IMG/VR virus record: IMGVR_UViG_3300006033_000067
Location: 1-34,790 of that record
Length of the DNA: 34,790 nucleotides
Strand: one strand, 5' to 3'
Origin: a virus
Numbering within the stretch: the first letter of the stretch is position 1; each line of letters opens with the position of its first letter. Made by a program: the position numbers and the translations under genes. The notes beneath the pieces are model-generated. The model was not told the DNA's origin, ran no database searches, and was given only the letters and a program-made list of their open reading frames with translations. Below are positions 6,075-18,223 of the stretch, piece by piece.

Positions 6075-6119
6075 ATTATACCATGACGGGGGGTATCCTG
6101 TCAAGGGTCATGTGTACAA
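6075..6119 (-). promoter_or_regulatory. Sigma-70 promoter P6.1 (minus) with upstream TTGTACAC box
   Basis: On the minus strand TTGACA (6104-6099) and TATAAT (6080-6075) are separated by 18 bases, both perfect consensus, and followed by GAAAGAAAGGGGAGAG. TTGTACAC occupies 6119-6112, exactly 7 bases upstream of the -35, and differs by one base from the TTTTACAC box at the three sister promoters. It should drive the 156-aa gene and the downstream series to polymerase and ssb. It lies outside the neighbouring coding regions, which supports function. Confidence 0.92.
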
Positions 6120-6137
6120 TACAGATTCCAATGTCTT

Positions 6138-6335
6138 TTAGTTCCCATAAGTTGGTCTAACCCCCTGGGTTATTTCAAAACTTCTATGGCAACTCGGACA
6201 GACTACAGTAAAACAGACTTTCTTCCCACTGCCTTCAGGTTTTTCATGACGGGACCAGACACCACAGAACGGACACTTCCTGCCCAACCCTTTTAGGAAC
6301 AATAATTCCCCTTCACCAACTTCTTGATTTTCCAT
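6138..6335 (-). CDS. Small zinc-ribbon protein (65 aa)
   Basis: Two cysteine knuckles, RKCPFCGVWSRHE (residues about 19-31) and FTVVCPSCHRSFEITQG (about 41-57), form a typical C-x2-C...C-x2-C zinc ribbon filling most of the 65 residues. Such mini-ribbons bind nucleic acid or protein partners; no specific partner can be deduced. It is the last gene of the long minus-strand operon ending just before promoter P6.1 and starts 12 bases after the SNF2 helicase stop. Confidence 0.7.
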   Translation of the reverse strand: MENQEVGEGELLFLKGLGRKCPFCGVWSRHEKPEGSGKKVCFTVVCPSCHRSFEITQGVRPTYGN

Positions 6336-6347
6336 TTTAACCCCCTT

Positions 6348-7904
6348 TTATGTGTACAATATGGACCCCAACGAGCCGGTGGCCAGGGCCTGTTTTATCA
6401 TCTGCTCAATCTCTTCCTTTCCCTGCAGGGCTCGGTAAATGAAGCTATCTAATGTTCCGGTCAAGATCAACGGAAAATAAGTCATGGGTCTGGTTTGTGT
6501 CAATCTGGCGATCCGACCTACGGACTGTATCCACATTTCCAGAGAAAAATCAAAAGAATAAAAAGCAGAAAGTCGAGCCGAATCCATATTCAAGCCCATG
6601 GCCCCCACTTGGTATTGACAGATCAGATTCCTGAACTCTCCCCGTTGAAAACTGTTTACGATCTGCTGCCGTTCTACCAGGGGTACTGCGCCATAGATTG
6701 CTCTGGCATCATCCAGTTCCGTTTGCAACATCTTCAATTCTGGAATAAATCGCACAAAAGTAACCAGTTGCTCATCTGGGCTATCCTCCAGGATATCCTT
6801 AATCATGGTCAATTTGGGGCTGCCACCTTTTATGGGCTCCCCGTCCTCGTCAAAACCCCCGGATATCTGACAGATTCGCAACATCTTAGTCAGGACATTT
6901 TTGATGGTAACTTCGCCCCGGACCTTGGACTCGGATATCATCTCGTTTTTTATCCGATCAATCAACCTCTTTTGCTCTGATGTTACCCCGGTTTTTCTGA
7001 CTGTAAAGGTCTGTGGTGGCAGGTGGGGCATAGCCTCCTTTTTGTCAATTACAAAAGAATAGGGGGTAAGATTGGCAATGAGCTCGTCCTGTTTTCTGTA
7101 GCCAATGATCTTATGATCCTTGTACCCACCCATCACACAGTATCGCTTTTTAAAACCGACATAGGTTGAAATACCAATAATCTCCGGATTGAGAAAATTG
7201 TACTGGGCATAAAGGTCAATTTCACTATTCAGCAGGGGGGAACCGGTCATGATATATTTCCGGTCTACGGCCTGTCCGAGATTAGTTATCTTTTCCGTGC
7301 GGGTGGCCTTAGTATTTTTGATTTTGCTCGATTCGTCTACTATCATTAACGTACGTTTTGTTACCCAGGCCAGGATCTTTGAATATAGACTACCTTGGCT
7401 ATAAGACTCGACCCCGGTAATGGCAATCTTATTCCAAGGAACGTCACCATACCAGTGTTTCTCAATCTCCAGTTTCCAGTTTTCGATAATAGACACAATG
7501 CCCACAATTAGGATCTGGTCGATCTGGCCAGCATGCCACAAAGAATGGGCTACGTCAATGGCAATCTTGGTTTTGCCGCTGCCAACCGGAGAAAATAACG
7601 CGCAATGCGGCAGGGAAAGCATCTTGGCAGAGGCCGTGGCCTGAAATGGCTTTGGCTCCGTTTTGAAAAGAAGAGGGACTGACTCGCAGGTGGTGGCCTC
7701 TTCCACGAGATTAGCGGAAGCCAACGGAGAAATTGTGGCCCTGGACAGCAAAGACCGCCTTATAATCTCTCGATTGATCTTGGAATCGTAGACCAGCCAA
7801 CATTTGCGTTTTTTATTCCAACGGCAGTCCAGTTCTTCCAGTAGGTGGTTATGGGCAAACATACACCGGATGAAAAACTTTCCGCCCTCGTAATCAATGT
7901 CCAT
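6348..7904 (-). CDS. SNF2/DEAD-like superfamily 2 helicase
   Basis: A 518-residue SF2 ATPase. Walker A is SPVGSGKTKIA (K111), motif II is LMIVDESSKIKN, motif III is YIMTGSPLLN; the second RecA domain shows QYQVGAMGLNM and motif VI QSVGRIARLTQT. The VDESSKIKN and MTGSP motifs are those of phage SNF2-like helicases. The first 60 residues (CRWNKKRKCWLVYDS) resemble the small N-terminal domain of such phage helicases. I chose ATG 7904 because AGGGGGG lies 6 bases upstream and it follows the previous stop; a TTG at 7943 would add 13 residues overlapping the preceding gene. It probably remodels or unwinds DNA with the primase encoded in the same operon. Confidence 0.92.
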   Translation of the reverse strand: MDIDYEGGKFFIRCMFAHNHLLEELDCRWNKKRKCWLVYDSKINREIIRRSLLSRATISPLASANLVEEATTCESVPLLFKTEPKPFQATASAKMLSLPHCALFSPVGSGKTKIAIDVAHSLWHAGQIDQILIVGIVSIIENWKLEIEKHWYGDVPWNKIAITGVESYSQGSLYSKILAWVTKRTLMIVDESSKIKNTKATRTEKITNLGQAVDRKYIMTGSPLLNSEIDLYAQYNFLNPEIIGISTYVGFKKRYCVMGGYKDHKIIGYRKQDELIANLTPYSFVIDKKEAMPHLPPQTFTVRKTGVTSEQKRLIDRIKNEMISESKVRGEVTIKNVLTKMLRICQISGGFDEDGEPIKGGSPKLTMIKDILEDSPDEQLVTFVRFIPELKMLQTELDDARAIYGAVPLVERQQIVNSFQRGEFRNLICQYQVGAMGLNMDSARLSAFYSFDFSLEMWIQSVGRIARLTQTRPMTYFPLILTGTLDSFIYRALQGKEEIEQMIKQALATGSLGSILYT

Positions 7905-7914
7905 CAACGCCCCC

Positions 7915-8160
7915 CTACCGCGGCAAAGAGTTTGCGTAGTCAATTGCCGCTTTCACGGAATCGTCGCCACGATCTTTTAGCGCTCGAATATTGCGTGCAT
8001 GGCGCTGATGCGCCACCACCGCTAAGGCTGGACCATTGGTTGGCCCATTCTCATCAAAAACAGCCCCTGCTTTATTTTTTTCAACAATAGCATCATGATA
8101 AAGTGCCGCTATTTCAAGGCCCTCAACAATACCTATTTTGTTCATTTCTTCAATAGTCAT
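7915..8160 (-). CDS. Hypothetical phage protein (81 aa)
   Basis: An 81-residue protein with an N-terminal helical part (EEMNKIGIVEGLEIAALYHD) and a C-terminal HARNIRALKDRGDDSVKAAI segment. I do not recognise the family. It is tightly packed between two minus-strand genes (3-base gap before, 10 bases after), and its stop lies directly before the helicase ribosome-binding site. No cysteines, membrane segment or catalytic motif is seen. Confidence 0.6.
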   Translation of the reverse strand: MTIEEMNKIGIVEGLEIAALYHDAIVEKNKAGAVFDENGPTNGPALAVVAHQRHARNIRALKDRGDDSVKAAIDYANSLPR

Positions 8161-8163
8161 GGT

Positions 8164-8412
8164 TTACTCCAATATTAAGTTTAAATTTGGACAGAAAAAT
8201 TCAGTTAAACTACTCGGTACCTTCGTTGGCGGCAGGGGAATGCCGTGCTGGCGTATGAACTCCAGACGATATCTGCCATCCTCGATATAGTCCACGGGCA
8301 TCAACACCGATCTCCCGGCATAGGTGACCATGGCGCATTTCTCGGTCCCGGTGGGGATATCCCGTACCCGGATCAGGTCCCCCCGGTTTATTTTTGTGGG
8401 TCTTATCTTCAT
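8164..8412 (-). CDS. Hypothetical small beta-rich protein (82 aa)
   Basis: Starting at ATG 8412 the protein reads MKIRPTKINRGDLIRVRDI, then VTYAGRSVLMPVDYIEDGRY. The alternation suggests a small beta-barrel of SH3/Hfq-like size, but no family is recognised. A longer start (8466) would overlap the preceding gene by 49 bases and lacks a good ribosome-binding site; AAAAGG lies before ATG 8412. Its first 35 coding bases are part of a 36-bp direct repeat whose second copy lies at 8787-8822, just upstream of the neighbouring gene. Confidence 0.6.
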   Translation of the reverse strand: MKIRPTKINRGDLIRVRDIPTGTEKCAMVTYAGRSVLMPVDYIEDGRYRLEFIRQHGIPLPPTKVPSSLTEFFCPNLNLILE

Positions 8413-8413
8413 A
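8378..8413. repeat. 36-bp perfect direct repeat, copy 1
   Basis: The 36 bases at 8378-8413 are identical to 8787-8822. On the minus strand they hold a gene start: ATGAAGATAAGACCCAC through to AAACCGGGGGGA. In this copy they are the functional start of the 82-aa gene. Confidence 0.9.
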
Positions 8414-8417
8414 CCAA

Positions 8418-8783
8418 CTAACCTTTTACCCCCCATTCTTCCTGGCGCTCTTTGAGCAAATCCCATCGAAGAGTATAGTTGATTCCGTCCTCAGTATCTG
8501 CCATTCTCGCCTCATACAACACTTTCAGGGCGGTTTCCCCGGCAGACATAAAAGAATGGGTACAAATATCGCTGTCTTCATCCACGGACAAATACTGATA
8601 AGCCATGTCCATTAACGCCCCAAGAAGGATTGTGTTTCCTACTTTAAGTTTTGTTATATCATCTTCAAGTAATCTTTCATCCTCTTTAGTATCTAACCCC
8701 AGGTGGTCAGCCAAACTATTTTCAATTTCCGCACACCCGCAGCCATAATCGAATCTACCACAAATTTTACAGATCTGCTCCAT
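8418..8783 (-). CDS. Hypothetical acidic protein with N-terminal Cys cluster (121 aa)
   Basis: The N-terminus, MEQICKICGRFDYGCGCAEI, has a C-x2-C knuckle and a C-x-C pair that could bind one zinc. The remainder is acidic and helical, with DTKEDERLLEDDITKL and SFMSAGETALKVLYEARMAD. I do not recognise the family. Its ribosome-binding site (GGGGGGATCT before ATG 8783) is supplied by the second copy of the 36-bp repeat, so the duplication has created or preserved its translation start. Confidence 0.6.
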   Translation of the reverse strand: MEQICKICGRFDYGCGCAEIENSLADHLGLDTKEDERLLEDDITKLKVGNTILLGALMDMAYQYLSVDEDSDICTHSFMSAGETALKVLYEARMADTEDGINYTLRWDLLKERQEEWGVKG

Positions 8784-8786
8784 AGA

Positions 8787-8822
8787 TCCCCCCGGTTTAT
8801 TTTTGTGGGTCTTATCTTCATA
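8787..8822. repeat. 36-bp perfect direct repeat, copy 2
   Basis: Identical to 8378-8413. On the minus strand it starts with an ATG and encodes MKIRPTKINRG in a frame not used by the downstream gene. It therefore looks like a stray gene head, and its G-run now serves as ribosome-binding site for the gene starting at 8783. Confidence 0.9.
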
Positions 8823-8830
8823 TTAAAATA

Positions 8831-9205
8831 TCAACTTTCCTGAAACTCTTGTAGCATGTTGCAGACATAATTCCTGGCCCCCGGAGGGAGCTTTGATAAA
8901 CAACTACTCGGAAGATCATTCACCCATTGTTCTTCTAAATAGTTATAGAGATCGTCTACAATGTTTCCAAATATCCAGCCGTCCGGGAAAAATTCATCCG
9001 CTATGGCGGCACAATTCATACACATTTTATTGTTACTTATTTTAGCATCCCAAAAAATGGAAGCGAAAATAAAATAATCTCCTCTCTTAATTGTCCCGTG
9101 ACATTCGGGGCAAATATGGTCTTTTGCGGCTTTGAGTTTTCTTTCTTTATACCCAATTTGTTCTTCGTCTTCATGCCAGTTATTTACACCACAAGAACAT
9201 TCCAT
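8831..9205 (-). CDS. Zinc-binding phage protein (124 aa)
   Basis: Cysteine pairs occur at MECSCGVNNWHEDE, DHICPECHGTIKRGDYFIF and NNKMCMNCAAIADEF. The central C-P-E-C-H-G-x-I-K-x-G-D-Y followed by a later C-x2-C is a familiar phage pattern (zinc-binding, function unknown). The C-terminal half is helical (DDLYNYLEEQW, RNYVCNMLQEF). It lies 9 bases downstream of the primase stop, with GGAGAAAATT before ATG 9205. A regulator or partner of the primase is possible but unproven. Confidence 0.7.
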   Translation of the reverse strand: MECSCGVNNWHEDEEQIGYKERKLKAAKDHICPECHGTIKRGDYFIFASIFWDAKISNNKMCMNCAAIADEFFPDGWIFGNIVDDLYNYLEEQWVNDLPSSCLSKLPPGARNYVCNMLQEFQES

Positions 9206-9214
9206 AATTTTCTC

Positions 9215-10756
9215 CTAGAATGTAACGTTAATTCCGGTCCTGGTCTTCTCCAGTATCTTTTTCTGGATCTCCGGGTGTTCTTTTATAAAGGTATTGGTTA
9301 ACTCGATCCTGGCCCCGTTCTGATCCTTGAACACGACCTTACCTTCGCTGTCATTGCACACTACCACATCCTCGGGCCTCATGTCGTTAATAATCGGTAC
9401 CTCCAGCCCCGGTGTCGTCACCCCAAGCATTTTTACCGGGATCTTGATAGCAGGGGAACCGTCGATGATTGATAACTTGCCGATCGATTCCAAGGTAATG
9501 TTGATGTCGTCCCTGGTGATGCCTTGCACCCCGGTCGTAATCAGCCGATTATATACGTCATGGGAGAACATCATTACTTCATCGTCAGAGAGAAATACCG
9601 GAGTGCCTGAATAAAGGTAGGATACCCCCGGCTTGAAATCCTTGGCCCACTTCTTAAGCTGTTGTATAATGAAATGGCCCTTGTCACGGTGGGTCACGAT
9701 GTCAACATGCTCTGCTGTCTCCAGCATCTGGTGCACCATCTGCGTCCATTCACTCTTTTTCATCAATGGCACATCTGTGATTCGGTGCTTCATAATGAAA
9801 TCTAGCCGGATCTTGTGGTTATTGAATACGTCCTCCACGTCAAATACTAGAGATTTATTGTCCACCGTCATTCGGATTTTCGGATCCTCTGCAATATAGT
9901 GTACAATCTCGATCTTTACAACGTCATATGTTTCTGCCACCCGCAATTGGGCTGAAAACCGGCATTTCTCTTTTCGGTTCTCTGGGCAATGGGAACATCC
10001 CAGACCAAACCCCGCCCCTTTTCTGCCTCTTTGCCGTTGGGCAGATGCCACAGTCCTGTCTACCTCGATTTCTGTTAAGGGCGAATCAAGATTGACATTT
10101 AAGACATGCATCAACTTCTTGACATTGGCGATCTCACATAAAACCAAAAAATTGGTCATGTGATACATAAAATTGTTTCGGTCCCCCTCTTCCGGCAGGG
10201 CGGACAAGCAACCCGGCAGGGAAACTAACTGGCGAACTGTCGGCTCATTCTCGAACAGGGGCTGACACTGTTTACCAAAATATGGCGGCCTGATACAATT
10301 GCCGTCTTCTCCGGGGTTCAATACATCTTGCTTGGGGAAAATCTCAATTTCATTGGCCGGGTCGATCAAATGAGAAATGAGAACGGAAAAAAGGCGGAGC
10401 GTGGCCCGCATGTCAGCCGCTGCCACGGGAAAAAGCGAAAAAACGTAAGCATGGGCTCCTTTGCCGGATTTTGAATAGTATAGGTTAAGGGGCAGGTCGT
10501 GCTCTTCAATGAAATACTGTAATCGTTCGTGGTTGACTGGCGGAGCGTCGCCTTTAGCATCAATGTCCAGGGCACCGAAATAGCAAGTATTGTTGTAACC
10601 CAGGGGCGTGATGCACAGGGCCATGTCGCCGGATAAGTGATCTTCCCAGTTTGGTTCTCGTTCCATCCATTTGGGAAAAGCACCATCCAGCAGAGCATGA
10701 CGACCAGGATTGTCAACTCTGAACAGTTTTTTCACCCGATCGACAGTGATGTCCAT
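9215..10756 (-). CDS. Archaeo-eukaryotic-type primase (AEP), TOTE/phage primase-like
   Basis: 513 residues. The AEP catalytic signature is in the first 170: FGALDIDAKGD (metal ligands D64 and D66), YYSKSGKGAHAYVF (nucleotide-binding H102), then NEIEIFPKQD with E138/D144 and GNCIRPPYFGKQ. The 'SKSGxGAH...xxFPxQD...G' string is that of primases of TOTE-type and phage/plasmid AEP families, not DnaG. A cysteine cluster (CSHCPENRKEKCRF) lies near residues 250-265. The remaining 240 residues are of unknown fold, perhaps a PriCT or HTH-like extension. It should synthesise primers for the phage polymerase. Start ATG 10756 has GGAGGAAGC in front and overlaps the BRO-N gene by 25 bases. Confidence 0.9.
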   Translation of the reverse strand: MDITVDRVKKLFRVDNPGRHALLDGAFPKWMEREPNWEDHLSGDMALCITPLGYNNTCYFGALDIDAKGDAPPVNHERLQYFIEEHDLPLNLYYSKSGKGAHAYVFSLFPVAAADMRATLRLFSVLISHLIDPANEIEIFPKQDVLNPGEDGNCIRPPYFGKQCQPLFENEPTVRQLVSLPGCLSALPEEGDRNNFMYHMTNFLVLCEIANVKKLMHVLNVNLDSPLTEIEVDRTVASAQRQRGRKGAGFGLGCSHCPENRKEKCRFSAQLRVAETYDVVKIEIVHYIAEDPKIRMTVDNKSLVFDVEDVFNNHKIRLDFIMKHRITDVPLMKKSEWTQMVHQMLETAEHVDIVTHRDKGHFIIQQLKKWAKDFKPGVSYLYSGTPVFLSDDEVMMFSHDVYNRLITTGVQGITRDDINITLESIGKLSIIDGSPAIKIPVKMLGVTTPGLEVPIINDMRPEDVVVCNDSEGKVVFKDQNGARIELTNTFIKEHPEIQKKILEKTRTGINVTF

Positions 10757-11139
10757 GCTTCCTCCGGAATGTTTATGGTTTCTGCAATATAAAACTTATT
10801 AAAGAGCCATTCCATGAGTGACGCGGACTCCGGTTTCTTGCTCCTGGCCAAAATACACACTATCCCCCGGAGGTTTACCATTCGCACCGGCTGCATGCCA
10901 CCTGGAGTCGCGATATTGAACATTGGAGACTGTTCCTCCGGCAGGTACAACCGGGTGATTCTCCCGTTGTACATCCCCATGGCCTTGGCAATATCCGTGG
11001 CCGAAATAAACACATCTCCATCAATTTCAACCATCCGTATCGGTAAGGCATTGTATGCTAATACCTTTACTTCTCCGCAGGGCAATCCAATATTCGGCGT
11101 TGATTTTCGCTGCGGCCTTGTCTCTATTTTCTTTTTCAA
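10732..11139 (-). CDS. BRO-N domain protein (phage antirepressor-like)
   Basis: The recognisable domain runs PIRMVEIDGDVFISATDIAK, YLPEEQSPMFNIATPGG, RMVNLRGIVCILARSKKP and MEWLFNKFYI. This is the BRO-N/antirepressor DNA-binding domain (V-R-x-x-x-I-D-G-D-x-x-F, NLRGI-x-x-L-x-x-R-S). Such proteins counter repressors or regulate phage genes. The start is uncertain. TTG 11139 has a perfect AGGAGG 9 bases upstream and keeps the whole domain; ATG 11034 would cut the domain's first strand. With TTG 11139 the gene overlaps the preceding zinc-finger gene by 113 bases in another frame. It overlaps the primase start, so the two are likely coupled. Confidence 0.8.
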   Translation of the reverse strand: MKKKIETRPQRKSTPNIGLPCGEVKVLAYNALPIRMVEIDGDVFISATDIAKAMGMYNGRITRLYLPEEQSPMFNIATPGGMQPVRMVNLRGIVCILARSKKPESASLMEWLFNKFYIAETINIPEEAWTSLSIG

Positions 11140-11389
11140 GTCGTTTGTCCTCCTGATATTGCTCATAACTAGCTGGTACAACCACCGGTACAACCACCGG
11201 TACAGTGGGCAAATCTATGTTTATTTTGCCGATCAACGGCCCATCAATCTGGGATCCGCCTCTTTTCCATGCTTTCTTGCAGTTATCTTTGCACTGGTCC
11301 GAACAATATTTGAACCTTTTCCGCCACCGTCGATTCTTGGCATAATATTCAAACTTCTTGCCGCACCACTTACATTCGGGGGTCACCAC
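11027..11389 (-). CDS. Zinc-finger protein whose 5' end is split by a 31-bp tandem duplication
   Basis: From GTG 11389 the frame encodes 120 residues: TPECKWCGKKFEYYAKN, then RFKYCSDQCKDNCKKAWKR, a C-x2-C...C-x3-C finger of the 'KYCS..C' type seen in small phage DNA-binding proteins. A Pro/Val-rich linker (TVPVVVPVVVPASYE) and a charged helix follow. The original start appears to be ATG 11441/11444, preceded by GGGAG: it reads MMPIKYPAVVTPECKWCG and then, because of the 31-bp tandem repeat, shifts frame and stops at 11370. Removing one repeat copy gives a continuous protein. Expression today would need reinitiation at the tandem GTGs 11389/11386 or reversion. Confidence 0.7.
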   Translation of the reverse strand: MVTPECKWCGKKFEYYAKNRRWRKRFKYCSDQCKDNCKKAWKRGGSQIDGPLIGKINIDLPTVPVVVPVVVPASYEQYQEDKRLEKENRDKAAAKINAEYWIALRRSKGISIQCLTDTDG

Positions 11390-11420
11390 TGCCGCACCAC
11401 TTACATTCGGGGGTCACCAC
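11359..11420. repeat. 31-bp perfect tandem duplication (2 copies)
   Basis: Positions 11359-11389 and 11390-11420 are identical 31-base units lying head to tail, followed by five more bases of a third unit. As 31 is not a multiple of three, the duplication changes the reading frame of the zinc-finger gene. The perfect identity suggests a recent event or an assembly artefact. Confidence 0.95.
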
Positions 11421-11440
11421 TGCCGGATATTTAATGGGCA

Positions 11441-11620
11441 TCATTTCTCCCTTATTCTATTTTTTTCGACAGCGACAGCCAAAGAGATGGCCCCCAATAT
11501 TTCAGAATAGGTATAGCCCAAGTAATACTCTTCCCTTTCTTCTTCTGGAAGAAATTCTTTTAAGAATTCAACGGCTTTAGCCATACGAATTTTCCGTATT
11601 TCCCTTTCTTCTGGGTTCAT
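11441..11620 (-). CDS. Small charged helical protein (59 aa)
   Basis: A 59-residue frame starting MNPEEREIRKIRMAKAVEF, rich in E/K/R, with EEEREEYYLGYTYSEI and AISLAVAVEKN later. It starts at ATG 11620 with GGAGGTTAA upstream, overlapping the previous stop as ATGA, and ends overlapping the original ATG of the zinc-finger gene (AAATGATG). Packing and ribosome-binding site argue that it is real. No family recognised. Confidence 0.65.
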   Translation of the reverse strand: MNPEEREIRKIRMAKAVEFLKEFLPEEEREEYYLGYTYSEILGAISLAVAVEKNRIREK

Positions 11621-12032: not shown

Positions 12033-12035
12033 CAC

Positions 12036-12366: not shown

Positions 12367-12387
12367 CGGGCCTCCATCGGTCCTTTC

Positions 12388-12431
12388 ATTTAACCACGGG
12401 GGCGTGCTCGTGTCAAGGTCCGTGTGTAAAA
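12388..12431 (-). promoter_or_regulatory. Sigma-70 promoter P12.4 (minus) with TTTTACAC box
   Basis: Minus strand: TTGACA (12416-12411), 17-base spacer containing CACG-CCCC-CGTG, then TTAAAT (12393-12388) and GAAAGG. TTTTACAC occupies 12431-12424, exactly 7 bases upstream of the -35. The flanking bases (ACGGACC) closely match the plus-strand promoter at 18.2 kb. It should drive the long operon from the 39-aa membrane protein to the zinc ribbon at 6138. Confidence 0.85.
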
Positions 12432-12435
12432 CGCC

Positions 12436-12645
12436 TCAAGAAATAAACTTAATCATTTCTACGTAAACATTTTCAATACTTCCATCTTCTTTCTCGATTA
12501 TGGCAGTAGAAAAATTACCGGGGCCATTTTCAAATTCCTCATATCCGACACCAAACTGATGAAAAACCGCTTTTCCGGCCTCGACCTTTTCGTATCTTTT
12601 CCGTTCGTTTATCCATTTGTTTTCAAAATATATTACTTGTCTCAT
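12436..12645 (-). CDS. Hypothetical phage protein (69 aa)
   Basis: 69 residues: MRQVIYFENKWINERKRYEK, KAVFHQFGVGYEEFENGPG, FSTAIIEKEDGSIENVYVEM. The compact pattern ending in 'STAIIE..DG.I..V.VE.I.F' is frequent in small phage proteins near replication genes. ATG 12645 overlaps the previous stop as ATGA, with AGGAGAAG before it. It is the last gene of the operon from promoter P14.8; promoter P12.4 begins right after its stop. Confidence 0.65.
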   Translation of the reverse strand: MRQVIYFENKWINERKRYEKVEAGKAVFHQFGVGYEEFENGPGNFSTAIIEKEDGSIENVYVEMIKFIS

Positions 12646-12980
12646 GGTTTCTTCTCCTTTTTGAAGTAATCTTTGATGTGTTGCAGGGTTTCTTGTAACT
12701 CCGGGGTGGGGGTCGGCAGGGGGGTGGTCGGCCCTTCCATTGTGATGTCTTCCACCACATTCTGGTCCCCCCAGCCCACCAGCTTAGATACCATAGCAGG
12801 GTCCGAACACTTGTCCCGCTTATCAAACATAACCTTTGAATAATAACGGCCAAGTTCGCCCTGGAAAATCTTGTCTCCCAATGGGGCAAAACGCCATTTT
12901 TTCAGAAGCTCATAATAACTGGCCTTGTCGATCCATTCTTTTTGCTCGGCCAGCCATTTGTCGTATTCTTGCCATTTCAT
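12642..12980 (-). CDS. Hypothetical aromatic, lysine-rich protein (112 aa)
   Basis: From ATG 12980 (AGGGGTG upstream, ATGA overlap with the previous stop) the protein begins MKWQEYDKWLAEQKEWIDKA, with later KWRFAPLGDKIFQGELGRYY, a Pro/Thr linker (TTPLPTPTPEL) and a basic end (YFKKEKKP). Rich in W, Y and K, probably mostly helical. No family is recognised and no metal or catalytic motif is seen. Confidence 0.6.
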   Translation of the reverse strand: MKWQEYDKWLAEQKEWIDKASYYELLKKWRFAPLGDKIFQGELGRYYSKVMFDKRDKCSDPAMVSKLVGWGDQNVVEDITMEGPTTPLPTPTPELQETLQHIKDYFKKEKKP

Positions 12981-13273
12981 AATGTACACCCCTCTAGATC
13001 GACCGCGCCACGAGAGCAGAGAAATACTGTGCCGACCACAAAGTCCGTTTTGTCAACGTAAGTTTTCAAGATTTCCGTGGCCACCTTGTTAACTGATAAG
13101 CCCCGCATTTTCCCATCCTCATCCACCCACATTTCGCAGTCTTCATTAATGATCACGCGCTCCACATACTTTGATTCCGTGATCTCCCGCACTTCCCCCA
13201 GGGTGAACTTATGCCCTCTGGTAGATATTGCCCGGGTGGTGCCGCATTCGTTTATAACTACCCCTGCTCCCAT
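12977..13273 (-). CDS. DUF3846-like protein (98 aa)
   Basis: From ATG 13273 (AAAGGAGCTGTT upstream) the core reads ESKYVERVIINEDCEMWVDE, DGKMRGLSVNKVATEIL and DKTDFVVGTVFLC. The order N-E-D-x-E-x-x-V-D-E-x-G-K-x-x-G-L-x-x-N-x-x-A-T followed by D-x-V-G-T-V is that of the DUF3846 family, common in phages and of unknown function. The start at 13273 is preferred over frames reaching into the neighbouring HTH gene. Confidence 0.65.
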   Translation of the reverse strand: MGAGVVINECGTTRAISTRGHKFTLGEVREITESKYVERVIINEDCEMWVDEDGKMRGLSVNKVATEILKTYVDKTDFVVGTVFLCSRGAVDLEGCTL

Positions 13274-13283
13274 AACAGCTCCT

Positions 13284-13580
13284 TTAGCCTCTCGGCTTGT
13301 CGCTAAGTTGTTGCCATTCGGCATTCCCGCGCTCTTTTTGCCATGATTCCCTGTCATACGCTTTTATCCTGTTGGGCTTTAAAACACACTCGTCCTCCCA
13401 GCCCTTTGATAATCTGGTGCGCAGGGTATCGTGGGATATCCCGATTATGCCGGCCAATTCTTTAATCATAAACGAACCAGCATCTGTGTCAATCACTAAT
13501 TTCTTTCTGCTTCTCCCCAGGGAATCTAAAACTTTTTTGTAATACGGAGCCCGCAGGATCTTTGTCGGTTTTTCGGTCAT
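13284..13580 (-). CDS. Small HTH DNA-binding protein (98 aa)
   Basis: The middle reads FMIKELAGIIGISHDTLRTR followed by LSKGW. This is a good helix-turn-helix: K-E-L-A-x-x-x-G-I-S-x-x-T-L-x-x-R-L. It has basic regions on both sides (RSRKKLVIDTD; KPNRIKAYDRESWQKERG). Probably a transcriptional regulator or HNH-associated HTH domain. It starts at ATG 13580, overlapping the preceding stop as ATGA. Targets could include the TTTTACAC boxes, but nothing in the sequence shows this. Confidence 0.7.
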   Translation of the reverse strand: MTEKPTKILRAPYYKKVLDSLGRSRKKLVIDTDAGSFMIKELAGIIGISHDTLRTRLSKGWEDECVLKPNRIKAYDRESWQKERGNAEWQQLSDKPRG

Positions 13581-14005
13581 TCGCTCACCATACAGGATAA
13601 GGATTGATGGGTTGTGATCTGGGTGGTTTCTTTCAACTTACAATTGCCGTTGGAGAAAAATTCCAGGGCCTTTTCGACTTCCCGGCAGAATGCCACAATT
13701 CGGATAGTCTCTCCGCTTTCCTGTACTGTCAGCCGGGTATTAAATCTCACGCTCAGATCGCCGCTCGTGGCTAAATAGTAACAATCCAGGACCGGGTCCA
13801 CGGCTTCCAATTCGTCGATGGTGGCCAGCAGAGAAGCCAGATCCTTACTGGTATTGAGGAATATGATTGAAAGCAGACCCGACACGTGGCCCAGCTTATC
13901 AAAGTCCGGCGGCAGGAAAGGCGAGATGTACGAAAAAACCGTGGCCGACTTTTCCGCGTCCTTCCTTTGATCTTCAAATTGTGCTCTAATTTCTTGTGCG
14001 TTCAT
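13577..14005 (-). CDS. Hypothetical phage protein (142 aa)
   Basis: Starting at ATG 14005 (AAGGGGAGATCCACC upstream) it reads MNAQEIRAQFEDQRKDAEKS, SGLLSIIFLNTSKDLASLLA, VRFNTRLTVQESGETIRIVA and CREVEKALEFF. It looks like a mixed alpha/beta protein with a helical N-terminus. The open frame continues upstream to 14248 but that stretch overlaps the neighbouring gene and has no good start. Function unknown. Confidence 0.65.
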   Translation of the reverse strand: MNAQEIRAQFEDQRKDAEKSATVFSYISPFLPPDFDKLGHVSGLLSIIFLNTSKDLASLLATIDELEAVDPVLDCYYLATSGDLSVRFNTRLTVQESGETIRIVAFCREVEKALEFFSNGNCKLKETTQITTHQSLSCMVSE

Positions 14006-14018
14006 GGTGGATCTCCCC

Positions 14019-14291
14019 TTATCTGATAAAATAATGGCGGCGGGTGTTATCGGTGCCCTTAAAACATTCCGGATAGTCGGTGCCGTTGATGCCGATCGAT
14101 TTGCCGGTCCGGGATTTCTCCATATCGACTGCGGAGAGATACCCAAATCCCTTGTAATTGCCGGTTTTGTGCAGAACGTTTTCGATGTAGCCGCAGATAG
14201 CTCCACGTTCTCTAGTGGCTTCGTCGCCGGAATTGAGCAGAACCTCATTTGCGAGGTCTACCAGGGTCGAAATGTGGATAGTCTTTTTCAT
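14019..14291 (-). CDS. Small conserved phage protein (90 aa)
   Basis: From ATG 14291 (AGGTGATATC upstream) it reads MKKTIHISTLVDLANEVL, TRERGAICGYIENVLHKTG, YKGFGYLSAVDM and, at the end, GTDNTRRHYFIR. The chain 'L...NE.L.....R.A....IE..L..TG.Y.GF.YL' ending in D-x-T-R-R-x-Y is a common short phage family of unknown function. It sits in an overlapping string of small early genes. Confidence 0.7.
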   Translation of the reverse strand: MKKTIHISTLVDLANEVLLNSGDEATRERGAICGYIENVLHKTGNYKGFGYLSAVDMEKSRTGKSIGINGTDYPECFKGTDNTRRHYFIR

Positions 14292-14295
14292 GATA

Positions 14296-14544
14296 TCACC
14301 TGTAAAATTGAATGTAGACGACATGGGGCTTATACGGGCTCATGACTTCTGATATTTCAAAATCAGCCCCGGTTCTGGCACAGACTTTTTCTCCGATCTC
14401 GACGGCAGCAGGGGTGTCGGTATGGACCCGGTATTTGATCTGCTGGGGCTCGGATTTTCGTTTGTCAGACCATTGCCCGGTTACTTTAATTCCGGCCAAT
14501 TCGACTTCTGCCCTGAAAACTCTCATAATACTTTTACGGTTCAT
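14296..14544 (-). CDS. Hypothetical phage protein (82 aa)
   Basis: 82 residues: MNRKSIMRVFRAEVELAGIK, WSDKRKSEPQQIKYRVHTDT, GEKVCARTGADFEISEVMSP and an aromatic end (VYIQFYR). Start ATG 14544 overlaps the previous stop as ATGA. No family is recognised. Confidence 0.6.
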   Translation of the reverse strand: MNRKSIMRVFRAEVELAGIKVTGQWSDKRKSEPQQIKYRVHTDTPAAVEIGEKVCARTGADFEISEVMSPYKPHVVYIQFYR

Positions 14545-14726
14545 TTGGTCCTCTTTATTTGACTGATGACATCGGCTCGGCAGGATTCCAAAGAGTGCCT
14601 GAGAGCCACAAAAGATTTGCCAGACGGCGGGGTAAAAGTGTAGTGAAGTAAAGACATGTTCTGACGAACGGTGCGGACCATAGTTTCGGTGCCCTCGATC
14701 TTCGGGTGCTGACTGATCTGTATCAT
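14541..14726 (-). CDS. Hypothetical protein (61 aa), first gene after P14.8
   Basis: From ATG 14726 with AGGAGAAACACC in front: MIQISQHPKIEGTETMVRTV, LHYTFTPPSGKSFVALRHSL, ESCRADVISQIKRTK. It is the first gene behind promoter P14.8 (-10 at 14783-14778). The leader carries the CACCACCACAGGAGAAACACC arrangement shared with other genes of this phage. The frame upstream of 14726 lies in the promoter, so longer starts are excluded. Function unknown. Confidence 0.65.
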   Translation of the reverse strand: MIQISQHPKIEGTETMVRTVRQNMSLLHYTFTPPSGKSFVALRHSLESCRADVISQIKRTK

Positions 14727-14777
14727 GGTGTTTCTCCTGTGGTGGTGGGCAGCAGGGCCTCTCCCTGCCTTTCTTTC

Positions 14778-14822
14778 ATTATACCATGCCGGATGGCATA
14801 CTGTCAATAATCTGTTTTACAC
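14778..14822 (-). promoter_or_regulatory. Sigma-70 promoter P14.8 (minus) with inverted TTTTACAC box
   Basis: Minus strand: TTGACA (14807-14802), 18-base spacer with the dyad ATGCC-ATCC-GGCAT, TATAAT (14783-14778) and GAAAGAAAGG. The 8-bp box is present 7 bases upstream of the -35 at 14815-14822 but in the opposite orientation (GTGTAAAA on the transcribed-sense strand). It drives the small-gene operon 14726 to 12436. Confidence 0.92.
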
Positions 14823-14951
14823 GGGGCCAGGGTCCGTGATCGAACCCCAGCTGGGACGCGGGCTCTGGGACCTCCATAGAAAGTGTTTGATAAAGGCGCT
14901 GGGACCAGGGCCAGCAGACAAGTCAGAACTGTTGTCATTTGCTAAGGTCAT
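14817..14951 (-). CDS. Possible 44-aa peptide in the control region
   Basis: ATG 14951 has GGAG seven bases upstream and opens a 44-residue frame (MTLANDNSSDLSAGPGPS, then a Pro/Trp-rich end, SWGSITDPGPV) that stops inside the TTTTACAC box of P14.8. The good ribosome-binding site is the only support; composition and position in a control region make it doubtful. Confidence 0.22.
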   Translation of the reverse strand: MTLANDNSSDLSAGPGPSAFIKHFLWRSQSPRPSWGSITDPGPV

Positions 14952-15043
14952 GTCGTCGCTCCACGAACAAAGTAGGCAGGAGGCCTCGTCGGGCCTTCCG
15001 TAGCCTTAATGCCCTGCTCCTTTTTTAAAGAGTCGTCCGATGC

Positions 15044-15104
15044 TGTCTGTCTGTCATTTTGTCATTTTTATTTCATCTATCAATCCATAAATGACAGACA
15101 GACA
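15044..15104. repeat. Perfect 16-bp inverted repeat flanking a 29-base AT-rich loop
   Basis: TGTCTGTCTGTCATTT (15044-15059) is the exact reverse complement of 15089-15104. Each arm contains three TGTC/TGTC-type tetramers (CTGT repeats). The 29-base centre is AT-rich and contains a second GTCATTTTTATTTCAT-like stretch. Candidate operator pair or replication origin. Confidence 0.9.
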
Positions 15105-15114
15105 ACGCCGGGAC

Positions 15115-15180
15115 TTTAAAAAAAGCGAAGCCTCGAGCGGCCACTGCCCCGGAGGCCCCGTCCGTGACGGGCCTTCGCGA
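15115..15180 (-). terminator. Branched hairpin with T-run (minus-strand terminator or structured RNA)
   Basis: Read on the minus strand: GCGAA(G) closes with (C)TTCGC. Inside are two sub-hairpins, CCCGTC-ACG-GACGGG and GCCTC...GAGGC, and TTTTTTT follows directly. It lies downstream of the minus-strand gene ending at 15358. A Rho-independent terminator is the simplest reading; the three-way layout is more elaborate than usual. Confidence 0.6.
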
Positions 15181-15217
15181 ATATGCCTAACACGCCCCTT
15201 CGCTCCATTGTCAGGTG

Positions 15218-15264
15218 TTGTCACTTATGCAGTTGTTTTCGTATTTTACCTGTATAAGTGACAA
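15218..15264. repeat. 11-bp inverted repeat TTGTCACTTAT / ATAAGTGACAA
   Basis: Arms at 15218-15228 and 15254-15264 are perfect reverse complements separated by 25 bases that include TTTTCGTATTTTAC (15236-15249). The same 14 bases occur at 18171-18184, overlapping the box of the plus-strand promoter. This suggests a regulatory site, although no good -10 is found here. Confidence 0.8.
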
Positions 15265-15301
15265 GTCGCATAATGTGTCGGCTCGATCCTAACAACGGCC
15301 C

Positions 15302-15328
15302 GGAGCCCCGAATGTGTTTCGAGGCTCC
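15302..15328 (-). terminator. GC-rich hairpin after the 15358 gene
   Basis: GGAGCC (15302-15307) pairs with GGCTCC (15323-15328), and inner CGAA with TTCG, around a TGTGT loop. It lies 30 bases beyond the stop at 15358 on the minus strand. There is no T-run, so it may only protect the 3' end or weakly terminate. Confidence 0.45.
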
Positions 15329-15357
15329 CGATGCCTAACAACGCCCCTCGGCCTATT

Positions 15358-15882
15358 TTACTTAAACACACTGACCAGCCGATTTCCAAGGACCATCCGA
15401 AATCTGCCGTTGTCCAGGTGCGCGTATTTCTCGATGAGGGCCTCGGCAGGGGTTCCGAGCGGTTCTGCCGCTAGTTTTGCGATTTCTTCTCGGCTCGTGG
15501 CTCCGGCCAGCAGCTCCCGGACCTTGACCCTGGCCTCGCCTGCCGTTCCCGTGGCCGTTCCTTCGCTTCTCCGGGGTGCCCCCGGCCTTTTGGTCGTGGT
15601 CCTCGGCTCGTACAAGGGCGGGGCCTCGGAGGCCTTCTCCAGGGCTATTGCAATTTTGTTTTCGATGGCCTCGGTCGTGGGAAGGATTCTACCGTCCTCG
15701 GAGGCCATGACCAAATCCTCTCCAGCCAGAGACACAGGGCAAAATTCGTTGTGAAATACCAGAATGGTTTCGCCATCGTCGTTCCGCAATTGGTACTGGC
15801 GTGTTTTGTTGTCCCAGCCGACCAAATCCCAGATCCCTGGTCGGTTAAACACATGACATTCGCGCTTGGTTAACTTGTCCAT
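15358..15882 (-). CDS. Hypothetical phage protein (174 aa), last gene of the 17.7-15.4 kb cluster
   Basis: From ATG 15882 (AGGAGACAGGACC upstream) the N-terminal half, MDKLTKRECHVFNRPGIWDL then VGWDNKTRQYQLRNDDGE, looks like a small beta domain. An Ala/Thr/Arg-rich linker (RRSEGTATGTAGEAR) follows. The C-terminal part, AGATSREEIAKLAAEPLGTP, could be a HTH-like or substrate-binding helical domain. No family is recognised. Codon use is GC-rich like the rest of this cluster and unlike the operons to the left. Confidence 0.65.
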   Translation of the reverse strand: MDKLTKRECHVFNRPGIWDLVGWDNKTRQYQLRNDDGETILVFHNEFCPVSLAGEDLVMASEDGRILPTTEAIENKIAIALEKASEAPPLYEPRTTTKRPGAPRRSEGTATGTAGEARVKVRELLAGATSREEIAKLAAEPLGTPAEALIEKYAHLDNGRFRMVLGNRLVSVFK

Positions 15883-15901
15883 GGTCCTGTCTCCTAAATA
15901 G

Positions 15902-15917
15902 GGGGCCTTTCGGCCCC
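15902..15917. repeat. Intercistronic hairpin, copy 1 of a 20-bp repeat
   Basis: GGGGCC-TTTC-GGCCCC (a GAAA tetraloop on the minus-strand RNA). With the next four bases it forms a 20-bp sequence also found at 16265-16284. It lies between the stop at 15926 and the ribosome-binding site of the gene at 15882. No T-run follows. Confidence 0.8.
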
Positions 15918-15925
15918 GGTTGAAT

Positions 15926-16150
15926 TTAAAAGCCCCGCTGGGCCAGGAATTTGTTTGCGTCGAGCGAAACCGAAAAGCTGCTGCTGATTGTCCGGCCTTT
16001 CCGCAATGCGCCCATTTTGCCGACCCAGTAAACGCTGCCGCTGGGCACGGTGAATTTGCGGTACTTCCGGGAGCCGCTGTCCTGCTCAACCCCGCCTTTT
16101 GCCAGTAAAAATGCTACCATTCTCTCGTGTACTGTTGGTTGCTTTGCCAT
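15926..16150 (-). CDS. Hypothetical small basic protein (74 aa)
   Basis: 74 residues: MAKQPTVHERMVAFLLAKGG, RKYRKFTVPSGSVYWVGKMG, ALRKGRTISSSFSVSLDANK. Basic, probably a small winged or beta fold: the 'V.......A.GG...G....Y..F......YWVGK.GA.R.G' pattern recalls small phage proteins without known function. GAGGAACGGACC precedes ATG 16150. Confidence 0.65.
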   Translation of the reverse strand: MAKQPTVHERMVAFLLAKGGVEQDSGSRKYRKFTVPSGSVYWVGKMGALRKGRTISSSFSVSLDANKFLAQRGF

Positions 16151-16162
16151 GGTCCGTTCCTC

Positions 16163-16249
16163 TCAGTGGATGGCTTGTGCCAGTTTGATGATTTCAATCA
16201 AAAAAACGATCGTCGGGATTCCTGCTGCCGTTAGAATGAAGTATTTCAT
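16163..16249 (-). CDS. Miniature membrane peptide (28 aa)
   Basis: MKYFILTAAGIPTIVFLI followed by EIIKLAQAIH: a single hydrophobic helix of about 18 residues with a short polar tail. AGGAGAAACATC, the same leader type as neighbouring genes, lies directly before ATG 16249. Its stop is 12 bases from the next gene. Size and leader argue for expression; the role is unknown. Confidence 0.6.
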   Translation of the reverse strand: MKYFILTAAGIPTIVFLIEIIKLAQAIH

Positions 16250-16264
16250 GATGTTTCTCCTGGC

Positions 16265-16280
16265 GGGGCCTTTCGGCCCC
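16265..16280. repeat. Intercistronic hairpin, copy 2 of the 20-bp repeat
   Basis: GGGGCC-TTTC-GGCCCC, with the following GGTT identical to 15902-15921. It lies between the stop at 16291 and the ribosome-binding site of the 28-aa peptide. Confidence 0.8.
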
Positions 16281-16290
16281 GGTTAAAATT

Positions 16291-16596
16291 TTAGCACATC
16301 AAATCATATGAACGATTGCCTGGCTTCGGTCCCTGAAACGTCTGATTCCAAGTCGGTTTATGGTCGATGATACATACGGCAATAATTCCAAAAGGTTTTT
16401 TACCAACATTCTGCGGATCAAAAGCCCCGGAGCCAGATTCGAGAAAAGCCATTCCGGAGTAGTAGCCGTTATAAGTGACGAGGCCGTTATTTCTAAAGTT
16501 AATATCACTTACCTGGGCGATCCGGGTATCATAGCCAGATTTCGATTTATGGGTGATGAGGAGGATGTCTCCGATGTTAAAGTCTTGAAATTTCAT
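16291..16596 (-). CDS. Hypothetical small beta-rich protein (101 aa)
   Basis: 101 residues: MKFQDFNIGDILLITHKSKS, GYDTRIAQVSDINFRNNGLV, YYSGMAFLESGSG, KKPFGIIAVCIIDHKPTW. The IGDILL...AQVSDI..N.LV pattern suggests a small SH3-like barrel as in KOW or plasmid-maintenance folds, but no family can be named. AGGAGAAACACC precedes ATG 16596 and CCACCACC precedes that, the shared leader type. Confidence 0.62.
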   Translation of the reverse strand: MKFQDFNIGDILLITHKSKSGYDTRIAQVSDINFRNNGLVTYNGYYSGMAFLESGSGAFDPQNVGKKPFGIIAVCIIDHKPTWNQTFQGPKPGNRSYDLMC

Positions 16597-16684
16597 GGTG
16601 TTTCTCCTTTGGTGGTGGTTGGTGGTCCTGGTCCAAATACCAGATCAAGGAATCCGTCCGAATTGGCCCGGATCCCTGAATCCG

Positions 16685-17392
16685 CTATTTCTGGCCTTCT
16701 GCCCGGATTTGTGCTGCCCGGAGGATGTTTCCGCAGTTCATCCGGACCATGCCGTTGTTGCGGTCTGCGTATCGCTGGGTCAGGAAAAACCGGAGGTTGT
16801 TCTCGCACCATGACCCGCCGACGATCGCTTTTCTGAAAGCTTTCACGAACGATTTCGACATGGTCTCGATGCCCAGCCTGACCAGCTCAACCGCTGTTAC
16901 GTCGATGGCTTCGGCTGCCGTTAAACCCCGGAGAAGGTCCGCTGTCCCATCTCCGATGTCCAGCGTGTCGTGGCCGGAGGGCGTGACTCCCAAACCCCGA
17001 AAATAGTGGCTGAGATCGGCTTTGATCCGAACTTTGACCCAAGCCCCGCATTTCGGGCACTGGATCGAGAGATTGAGACGTTTCGGAGTCCAAACGTGCT
17101 CGCATTCCGGGCAGAAAACCTCGATCTGGTCGTCGTTGGCCCAGGAACGCTCGATGGCCTGAGAGGGTTCGACTTCCGGCGAGGGAGCGAGGGCCTGTTT
17201 CTCGGCCTCCAGCGTTTCAGCAATGGCCTCGTGCATCGGCAGCAGGACGCATTTGCCGGAGCGGGCTTTCGTGGTGGATTTGTCCGGAAATTCAAGCGTG
17301 AGCCATCCGGCCTTGGCGGAGAGAACGAGGGCGATCTGGCCATCAACGGAAACGTGGCTGCCTGCAACGATGGTGGTGGTCTGGTTCTTCAT
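16685..17392 (-). CDS. Zinc-ribbon protein with C-terminal helical domain (235 aa)
   Basis: The N-terminal 50 residues (VAGSHVSVDGQIALVLSAKA, GWLTLEFPDKSTTKAR) look like a small beta barrel. A zinc ribbon follows at about 94-118: VFCPECEHVWTPKRL with QCPKCGAWVKVRI. The C-terminal part is helical (LTAAEAIDVTAVELVRLGIE, SFVKAFRKAIVGG, CENNLRFFLTQRYADRN). A nucleic-acid-binding role is likely. AGGAGAACCACC precedes ATG 17392; the same 14-base leader and MKN start occurs at the next gene upstream. Confidence 0.68.
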   Translation of the reverse strand: MKNQTTTIVAGSHVSVDGQIALVLSAKAGWLTLEFPDKSTTKARSGKCVLLPMHEAIAETLEAEKQALAPSPEVEPSQAIERSWANDDQIEVFCPECEHVWTPKRLNLSIQCPKCGAWVKVRIKADLSHYFRGLGVTPSGHDTLDIGDGTADLLRGLTAAEAIDVTAVELVRLGIETMSKSFVKAFRKAIVGGSWCENNLRFFLTQRYADRNNGMVRMNCGNILRAAQIRAEGQK

Positions 17393-17417
17393 GGTGGTTC
17401 TCCTGTGGTTTGGTTGA

Positions 17418-17437
17418 GGGAGGCTCGGAGGCCTCCC
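17418..17437. repeat. Intercistronic hairpin GGGAGGC / GCCTCCC
   Basis: A 7-bp perfect stem (17418-17424 with 17431-17437) around TCGGAG, in the gap between the stop at 17447 and the ribosome-binding site of the gene at 17392. Its position matches that of the hairpins at 15902 and 16265, but the sequence differs. Confidence 0.75.
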
Positions 17438-17446
17438 GTTTGGGCT

Positions 17447-17710
17447 TCAGATGCTTTTCATGGTTTTTTTCTTCTGGACCCAGCAAAAATGGGCAAGCTC
17501 AAAATTCGCGTTGAAGTCAAGAGACTTGAGCGCCCACAAAAGCTGTTTTGATTTGCGTGTTCTTTGTTTGTTGTCTCCAAAGGCAACTTGTGAGGCTTGT
17601 TCAATTGTCCGCGTTTCCCATTCTCGGTGGTCTTCGTTCATTGTTGGTTGAGGGAGACTTTTCCAGGCTTTTGCGAAAGCTCGTTCTTCTGCTGGAGTGC
17701 GGTTCTTCAT
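17447..17710 (-). CDS. Hypothetical basic protein (87 aa), first gene of the minus arm
   Basis: 87 residues: MKNRTPAEERAFAKAWKSLP, TRTIEQASQVAFGDNKQRTR, KSKQLLWALKSLDFNANFEL. Rich in K/R and probably helical. CAGGAGAACCACC precedes ATG 17710. No family is recognised. It is the first gene read leftward from the central non-coding region; no good -10/-35 was found for it by eye. Confidence 0.6.
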   Translation of the reverse strand: MKNRTPAEERAFAKAWKSLPQPTMNEDHREWETRTIEQASQVAFGDNKQRTRKSKQLLWALKSLDFNANFELAHFCWVQKKKTMKSI

Positions 17711-18193
17711 GGTGGTTCTCCTGTTGGTTTTCGGGCCTGTGTGCGGCCTTGCCCCCGGTGCCGCCCTGGCCCCGGTCCTGTGCTGCCCTTCCCTTTTTTT
17801 GTTGCAAGCCCCGTGCCACGACGGCGTCTCTTCGTGGTGCTCCCTGTTGTGTGCCCTTTTGTCCGCACCACCACCGGTTGTGGTGTCTTTTGTCCCTCCC
17901 TGTGTACCACAGCGTGGTGTTTTTCTGCCGTTTCACCTTGTTTCACCTTGTTCCACCTTGTTTCACCTTGTTCCGTTCCGTTCCATACCACGCCGTGGGA
18001 TACCCAGGGGGGGCACCCCCCACCCCCCGTTTCGAGGCCGGGGGGCCTTTACCCTAGAAGCGTTTTCCTCCAATAAATAATTTAGTCCTTTCGCCTATTC
18101 CATTGGTCCTTGGGCCTAACACACCCCCACCGTCCCCAGTGTTGGTGTTTGGCACAGTCTGCCGTTCCCCTTTTCGTATTTTACACGAGGAAC
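17711..18193. other. About 480-base repeat-rich non-coding region between divergent arms
   Basis: This separates the minus-strand arm from the packaging genes. It is strongly C/T-rich on the plus strand. It contains decamer repeats (17931-17970), the dyads CCAC-AGC-GTGG near 17908 and CCAC-GCC-GTGG near 17988, a G6/C6 hairpin (18007-18021), CCCCCCG/CGGGGGG (18023-18045) and a GCCTAAC element (18114). Frames crossing it are low-complexity and overlap on both strands. Lying just upstream of the terminase genes, it is a candidate cos or pac site, or origin. Confidence 0.6.
17931..17985. repeat. Four 10-bp tandem repeats (TTTCACCTTG) plus three TTCCG/A pentamers
   Basis: TTTCACCTTG at 17931, 17941 and 17961 with a one-base variant (TTCCACCTTG) at 17951, followed directly by TTCCG-TTCCG-TTCCA. 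The 10-base period equals one DNA turn, as expected for cooperative binding of a protein (iterons). Confidence 0.9.
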
Positions 18194-18223
18194 TTGACAA
18201 ACCCCCTGCTGCTATGTTATAAT
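18179..18223 (+). promoter_or_regulatory. Sigma-70 promoter P18.2 (plus) with TTTTACAC box
   Basis: TTTTACAC (18179-18186), 7 bases, TTGACA (18194-18199), 18-base spacer, TATAAT (18218-18223), then GAAAGAAAAAGG. Both hexamers are perfect consensus. It is the only promoter recognised for the rightward packaging and structural genes. The start point should be near 18230, which rules out the ATG overlapping the -10 as a gene start. Confidence 0.94.

Follow-up and report, generated by a model that had tools for sequence, protein, structure and literature searches.

Four promoters and the box in front of them

The DNA studied here is the IMG/VR virus record IMGVR_UViG_3300006033_000067, whose full 34,790 bases we call the window, and in it genes for a primase, an SNF2-type helicase and PolA are read leftward from the promoters P3, P2 and P1, and genes for terminase, portal and head proteins rightward from a fourth promoter, P4. 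An 8-bp box, the subject of this work, ends 7 bp before the −35 of each of the four, that is, at about −51 to −44 relative to the start and just upstream of the −35. In P1 (6075–6119, minus strand), which stands before the open reading frame (ORF) 5525–5995, the box TTGTACAC (6112–6119) is followed by 7 bp, TTGACA (6099–6104), 18 bp, TATAAT (6075–6080) and then GAAAGAAAGG. P2 (12388–12431, minus strand), with genes for a Bro-N protein and the primase among those downstream of it, has the box TTTTACAC (12424–12431), 7 bp, TTGACA (12411–12416), 17 bp, TTAAAT (12388–12393) and GAAAGG. The box of P3 (14778–14822, minus strand) is inverted, GTGTAAAA (14815–14822), and is followed by 7 bp, TTGACA (14802–14807), 18 bp, TATAAT (14778–14783) and GAAAGAAAGG. 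Finally, P4 (18179–18223, plus strand), which precedes the terminase and the rightward structural genes, has TTTTACAC (18179–18186), 7 bp, TTGACA (18194–18199), 18 bp, TATAAT (18218–18223) and GAAAGAAAAAGG.

All four promoters carry GAAAG 3′ of the −10. P1, P3 and P4 match the −35/−10 consensus, taken with spacers of 16–18 bp, at 12/12 positions and have TGn before the −10; P2 matches at 10/12, its −10 TTAAAT keeping 4/6 consensus positions with TGG ahead of it. The initial annotation of this DNA had listed the four sites with the box at this distance, and every coordinate was correct, but its wording "near-identical promoters" was overstated for P2.

Genomes compared

An IMG/VR contig of 47,401 bases (G001) matches the window at 100% over 23,911 and 11,006 bases. 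Its two ends share an identical stretch of 127 bases, and it therefore looks like the whole, circularly assembled genome of the window phage, which we call phage W. Phage B is the contig G004 (45,432 bases), which overlaps with G005, G006 and G011 at 99.9–100% and is 73–79% identical to the window over the aligned DNA. A third relative is partial, comprising G010 (26,847 bases), evidently contig JROS01000092.1 of the Desulfobulbus sp. Tol-SR assembly, and C115, a 4,286-base contig of that same assembly.

Placement of the box

What is distinctive about the box is its place, not its frequency. The initial annotation had asked whether the box is as common away from promoters, and the answer is divided: in the window the 8-mer alone, at ≤1 mismatch, occurs at chance frequency (35 matches vs. 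32.0 expected), but three of the five exact copies of TTTTACAC in the full 47.4-kb contig stand at promoters. Promoters matching at 12/12 with spacers of 16–18 bp number three in that contig, and none appeared in 60 shuffles. A rule blind to the box (0–1 mismatch at 16–19 bp, or ≤3 mismatches plus GAAA) finds six promoter-like sites in the window, four of them with the box, and the two box-less sites (30402, plus strand; 13492, minus strand) lie inside ORFs; a laxer rule (≤2 mismatches, 15–19 bp) gives 15 matches, five at the four box promoters (P4 twice) and 10 without the box.

The preference for one distance is sharp in both phages. When the four sequences before the −35 were compared at gaps of 0–44 bp, with inversion allowed and with 20,000 random sets per genome, phage W gave 45/48 at gap 7, 33 at gaps 6 and 8, and 11–19 from gap 12 outward (random maximum 30), and phage B gave 43/48 at gap 7 and ≤24 at all other gaps (random maximum 29).

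Conservation and concerted change

Under the same box-blind rule phage B has five promoter-like sites, and 4/5 carry the box at gap 7; the fifth and weaker one (43882, plus strand, spacing 19, TATCAT) is without it and lies just outside the part of B to which window 29337–34780 aligns in reverse. The orthologues of P1, P3 and P4 stand in G004 at 20268 (plus strand; TTTTACGT, gap 7, −35 TTGACG), 12432 (plus strand; CCGTAAAA, gap 7) and 9674 (minus strand; TTTTACGG, gap 7). The fourth, P3b (10381, plus strand), also has its box at gap 7; its counterpart was not found in W, nor that of P2 in G004. In the third relative, the C115 promoter that matches P2 has an identical TTTTACACACGGACCTTGACA (21 bases) at gap 7, and it is the one complete promoter counted there, a second being cut by the contig end with its box outside the contig. 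The possibility raised at the outset, that relatives might keep the promoters and lose the box or its spacing, is thus not borne out by the four strong promoters of B or the complete one of C115.

The box itself has changed between the two phages, and in the same way at several promoters. In the four strong promoters of B it reads TTTTACG followed by G, T or A, so that the box ends in ACAC at 4/4 promoters of W and in ACG plus G, T or A at 4/4 promoters of B, position 7 being A throughout in the former and G throughout in the latter. Both phages have boxes that are turned round about their own centre, and in each phage the inverted box of P3 and the box of P4 are exact reverse complements. Across the three orthologous pairs (P1, P3 and P4), the 6-bp core is identical at 17/18 positions, equal to the −35 (17/18), the exception being the G in TTGTACAC, and box positions 7–8 are identical at 0/6; the corresponding figures are 23/60 for the 20 bp upstream, 11/21 for the 7-bp gap and 31/54 for the spacer. 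The core has thus been kept as strictly as the −35, and its two neighbouring end positions have changed in concert. This concerted change across promoters suggests a sequence-specific reader of the box.

Neighbouring genes also come and go at the box. A 12-bp direct repeat, TATTGTACACAT (window 6110–6121 and 6350–6361, minus strand), flanks the ORF 6138–6335, for which no match was found in B; one copy of the repeat contains the P1 box and the other is the end of the SNF2 helicase gene, and the ORF looks like an insertion at the P1 box. Likewise, the Tol-SR contig lacks the ORF 12436–12645 (minus strand), which in W stands directly upstream of the P2 box; in that contig the preceding gene stops at the box. 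At both P1 and P2, genes have been gained or lost at the upstream limit of the promoter unit, and we count this in favour of the box being a working part of that unit.

The pattern in other phages and in a bacterial assembly

IMG/VR was scanned for the forward or inverted core together with perfect hexamers and GAAA. Four stretches carry the forward pattern (G001, two contigs of B and L122), and the inverted one was found in the same G001 and B contigs and in L126; L122 and L126 look unrelated, having different ORFs and records without a terminase match (an empty answer that shows little). The Tol-SR assembly (4.2 Mb) has a single copy of the forward pattern, on the phage-group contig C115 (control 0), a single copy of the inverted one (control 1) and no TTGACA-N17/18-TATAAT. 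A host promoter feature was rejected, neither pattern being in excess in that assembly outside the phage contig, and so was a divergent or tandem promoter with GTAAAAT read as the −10, a −35 at working distance being absent by eye. The available portions of the literature on TTTTACAC, BRO-N, phage promoter motifs and conserved Z-phage genes yielded nothing on the box.

We also surveyed upstream similarity over 30 gaps in 210 loci or genomes (201 control stretches, 8 PurZ phages and a T4 stretch), of which 87 had at least three promoters at ≤1 mismatch. The best within-genome values were 0.83 (L213) and 0.82 (L165, whose sequences are similar to those of L213), compared with 0.94 in W and 0.90 in B at gap 7, the survey having used a faster scoring. 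Recurrent motifs of their own near the −35 of near-perfect promoters were seen in L130, L254, L269, L165 and L213, and that of L165 and L213, read by eye, is GTGAAATTARCC. The 201 control stretches include 120 from a scan for the Z-phage promoter signature TTGACA-N4-8-CCC-N4-8-ATGKTATAAT, which we rejected as a mark of Z genomes: because at least 120 IMG/VR stretches match it and the PurZ hidden Markov model (HMM), run on the fetched stretches and not on whole contigs, was positive in 0/201 controls, such promoters are simply common in phages.

Among other PurZ phages, read by eye, Vibrio K300 and phiVC8 have about TGYAACA and Stenotrophomonas BUCT555 has GACGARCGGT. Like the W box, these elements recur near the −35 of near-perfect promoters; unlike it, they differ in sequence and gap, and flipped copies were not noticed. 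The within-genome upstream similarity is 0.56 in K300 and 0.66 in phiVC8.

What the box may do

We give roughly an even chance to the box having a function as an upstream element in the strong sigma-70 promoters of the phage itself, where a putative and most likely phage-encoded DNA-binding protein would read it and act as an activator or stabiliser. Because the box occurs both ways about its own centre and changes in step across promoters, the reader would be a specific protein, either dimeric and symmetric or indifferent to orientation. It would sit at about −51 to −44, beside sigma region 4 and the C-terminal domain of the polymerase alpha subunit (alpha-CTD), where it would most likely contact or tether the host RNA polymerase, and it would thereby mark these promoters as the phage's own. 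As a further step, consensus hexamers and tether together might compensate for 2-aminoadenine in the template, a reading tempered by the fact that consensus promoters are common in phages anyway. Protein binding, the phage origin of the protein and activation are what we infer here, and the sign of the effect comes from position alone.

Several other points weigh against this reading as well. Only two lineages with several promoters were found, the counts are small and orthologous promoters are not independent, and those within one genome may be duplicates; L122 and L126 indicate that chance, too, can produce the pattern where DNA is rich in A/T, and L213 and L165, with an upstream box of their own near the −35, that a box next to a strong phage promoter is in itself nothing out of the ordinary. 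The constant TTTT or AAAA part would suit alpha-CTD too, and the proteins named as readers are candidates only. Overall, we regard the box as real and as a conserved part of the promoters, and the case for a specific, though putative, reader as a good one.

Contact with alpha-CTD is the strongest of the alternatives, although we consider it rather unlikely: the box would be the UP-like A/T tract of an "uber" UP/−35/TGn/−10 promoter, and a phage protein would be unneeded. The box does lie in the UP region, always with an A/T tract (TTTT or AAAA; TTGT at P1), an inverted site could still be recognised through the minor groove, and in the phages SH-Ab 15497, PMBT28 and Kokobel2 several −35s are directly abutted by A/T-rich stretches. 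The A+T content of −60 to −37 (0.42–0.67, mean about 0.54 in both W and B) is slightly in excess of that of the genomes (0.51 and 0.52), but matches to the UP consensus number 3–7 of 15, on average 5.25 in each phage, where the backgrounds are 4.58 and 4.75, and the UP-like element proposed in the initial annotation is accordingly not supported. Alpha-CTD contact also leaves unexplained why the C is invariant, why A changed to G in concert and why positions other than A/T form exact reverse complements. The box shares with the E. coli UP element its location upstream of the −35 and a 4-bp T or A tract, and differs from it in a consensus match near background, a conserved C and lineage-specific positions in W and B. 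T4 early promoters are described (PMC2988021) as being of the UP/−35/TGn/−10 "uber" sigma-70 type, and they are like those of W in an excellent −35, TGn and −10, the host sigma-70 polymerase and extra conserved positions, and also in that T4 DNA is modified, as that of W probably is. Unlike W, a 38-kb T4 stretch has an upstream similarity of ≤0.62, at gap 4 (3 promoters), and its GTTTAC was rejected as a parallel to the box, the TTTAC motif there coinciding with the T4 −35 itself. P1–P4 do not have the A/T-rich −59 to −38 region with the TTTT..AAAA consensus of UP elements, and would thus be classed, on their sequence, as −35/TGn/−10 promoters plus an unassigned box.

The operator proposed in the initial annotation, through which a phage repressor/antirepressor system would shut all promoters together, we hold to be improbable. 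A site found in both directions about its centre would suit binding by a dimer, and the Bro-N protein matches PHROGs named anti-repressor, but a position outside the core promoter is an unusual place for steric repression, and the proteins scanned, a subset of the genome's ORFs, included no recognisable repressor or integrase. The proposed joint switching would concern all transcription units, and no promoter of the P1–P4 type was found at window 17711–18178 for the leftward genes at 15.4–17.7 kb; B has P3b there. It is likewise improbable, and a little more so in our estimation, that the box has no regulatory role and is the remnant of the end of one promoter cassette copied by recombination. 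The leader GAAAGAAA, present in P1, P3 and P4, would fit such copying, as would the gain or loss of genes directly upstream of the box at P1 and P2 described above; copying, however, does not flip 8 bp in place, and the box changed alike at several promoters while gap and upstream positions drifted. Of the initial interpretation, then, the assignment of box and spacing to the promoter stands, the UP-like element is not supported and the helix-turn-helix (HTH) partner is weakened.

Under the reading that we prefer, a protein reading the box, there is a likeness to activator sites near −40, where a bound protein lies against the −35, as the putative W reader would. Lambda CI at OR2 binds in this way. 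CI and Mor promoters are activator-dependent, unlike the box promoters of W with their consensus hexamers. The Mor site of phage Mu is at −43.5, against the −35 (PMC4390567). In a phage that probably has a 2-aminoadenine genome, this consensus promoter set comes with a short element open to mutation and to exchange between two relatives, and with a short list of candidate proteins; if a protein does read the box, the concerted change between W and B would be a natural specificity switch.

Candidate readers

The initial annotation had named two possible partners, which have fared differently. The small protein with a Bro-N domain (10732–11193, minus strand; PF02498, E 5.3e-6) remains a possible one, with a homologue in G004 at 48% over 92 aa, a mid-range value among the shared genes (30–81%). 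The possible HTH protein (13284–13580, minus strand), whose best Pfam HTH match (E 0.048) is below the cut-off, is 94% identical in the Tol-SR contig, but a tblastn search of G004 at E 0.01 gave no match and it is therefore unlikely to read the box in B.

A further candidate partner, and no more than that, is a zinc-ribbon-like protein (16685–17392, minus strand), whose orthologue in B follows P3b. Its predicted structure has a mean pLDDT of 57.9 from only 3 sequences, with a best Z of 3.9, and its one match under 0.001 in BFVD has a TM of 0.27. Its C-terminal domain (..YAHLNNGMQRMNLGNxLRGAxKR..) is shared with a second protein (15358–16089, minus strand; true start probably inside the frame) and with proteins of other PurZ phages.

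PurZ, the C-terminal-domain family and the host

Phage W probably has 2-aminoadenine DNA, since it encodes PurZ and DatZ. The genes for PurZ, a DatZ-like phosphohydrolase and a dATP/dGTP diphosphohydrolase lie to the left of the window in G001 (L021:8492–10895); PurZ matches PDB 6fm1 (E 7.9e-51), which is the phiVC8 PurZ (PMC8342488), 7odx (E 6.3e-50) and phrog_1211 (E 2.9e-49), and the other two proteins match phrog_7076 (E 5.3e-20) and PF18909 (E 2.1e-20). The PurZ of B is 71% and that of G010 88% identical to that of W, and the GenBank polymerase nearest to the window PolA, at 38.5%, is annotated as DpoZ.

An HMM of the C-terminal-domain family, built from W, SH-Ab 15497, PMBT28, Kokobel2, K300 and phiVC8, where it matches by construction, was also positive in B, PSA28, Klebsiella K21lambda1, Barton, BUCT555 and ZP6, which places the family in 12/13 of the Gram-negative PolA-type PurZ phages examined, the partial G010 left aside. 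It gave no match in the PurZ-bearing S-2L (PrimPol type), Ochrobactrum OH (PolA type) and Arthrobacter Wayne or in G010, nor in the T4 stretch and the 201 control stretches, where PurZ was likewise not found. Members elsewhere lie at L127:35832–36521, L128:34011–34928, L132:6538–7443, L130:37372–38013, and L254:37495–38094 and 32538–33230. With the Kokobel2 protein as tblastn query (E 0.001), 55 of 50,697 phage records matched, in eight genera, and when family and PurZ are compared as genus counts, not record by record, these stand at 37/38 in Vibrio, 10/10 in Acinetobacter, 2/2 in both Klebsiella and Alteromonas, and 1/1 in Providencia. PurZ genera without a family match in this search were Arthrobacter (105), Microbacterium (18), Gordonia (6), Streptomyces (5) and Ochrobactrum (2); the sole Stenotrophomonas match, BUCT555, has an annotated adenylosuccinate synthetase beside a DUF550 gene.

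Counting family genes only, 13/14 of them in 10 annotated phages stand directly behind a promoter with ≤1 mismatch, the exception being the second K300 gene, and in those 13 the distance from the start of the −35 to the annotated gene start is 27–134 bp; at 27 bp the annotated start overlaps the promoter, and the true start is therefore further on. It is conceivable, though we think it very improbable, that PurZ phages carry a dedicated transcription adaptor, namely this zinc-ribbon/C-terminal-domain protein (two copies in W), which would read a phage-specific box beside consensus TGn promoters and help the host sigma-70 polymerase to open Z-containing DNA, with box and protein co-diverging.

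As for the host, the Tol-SR assembly comes from the metagenome of an enrichment culture (PMC4299903), and Desulfobulbaceae are therefore a lead, not a result. A primase query found no match in this assembly, nor did a terminase query in a first scan of genome contigs. The presence of the relative's contigs (L258, L256) inside a published sulfate-reducer assembly may be a hint of the host or a case of misplaced phage contigs.

Among the promoter leaders that were folded, four showed no hairpin beyond base composition, among them that of P3, whose short G+C-rich hairpin (14751–14769, minus strand; −12.4 kcal/mol, z −0.66) is explained by composition. Folding was weaker at P3 of B (z −2.0) and went beyond composition at P1 of both phages, with a predicted hairpin at 6036–6066 (minus strand; −17.3 kcal/mol, z −3.72) in the window and a counterpart in G004 (−17.6, z −3.56).

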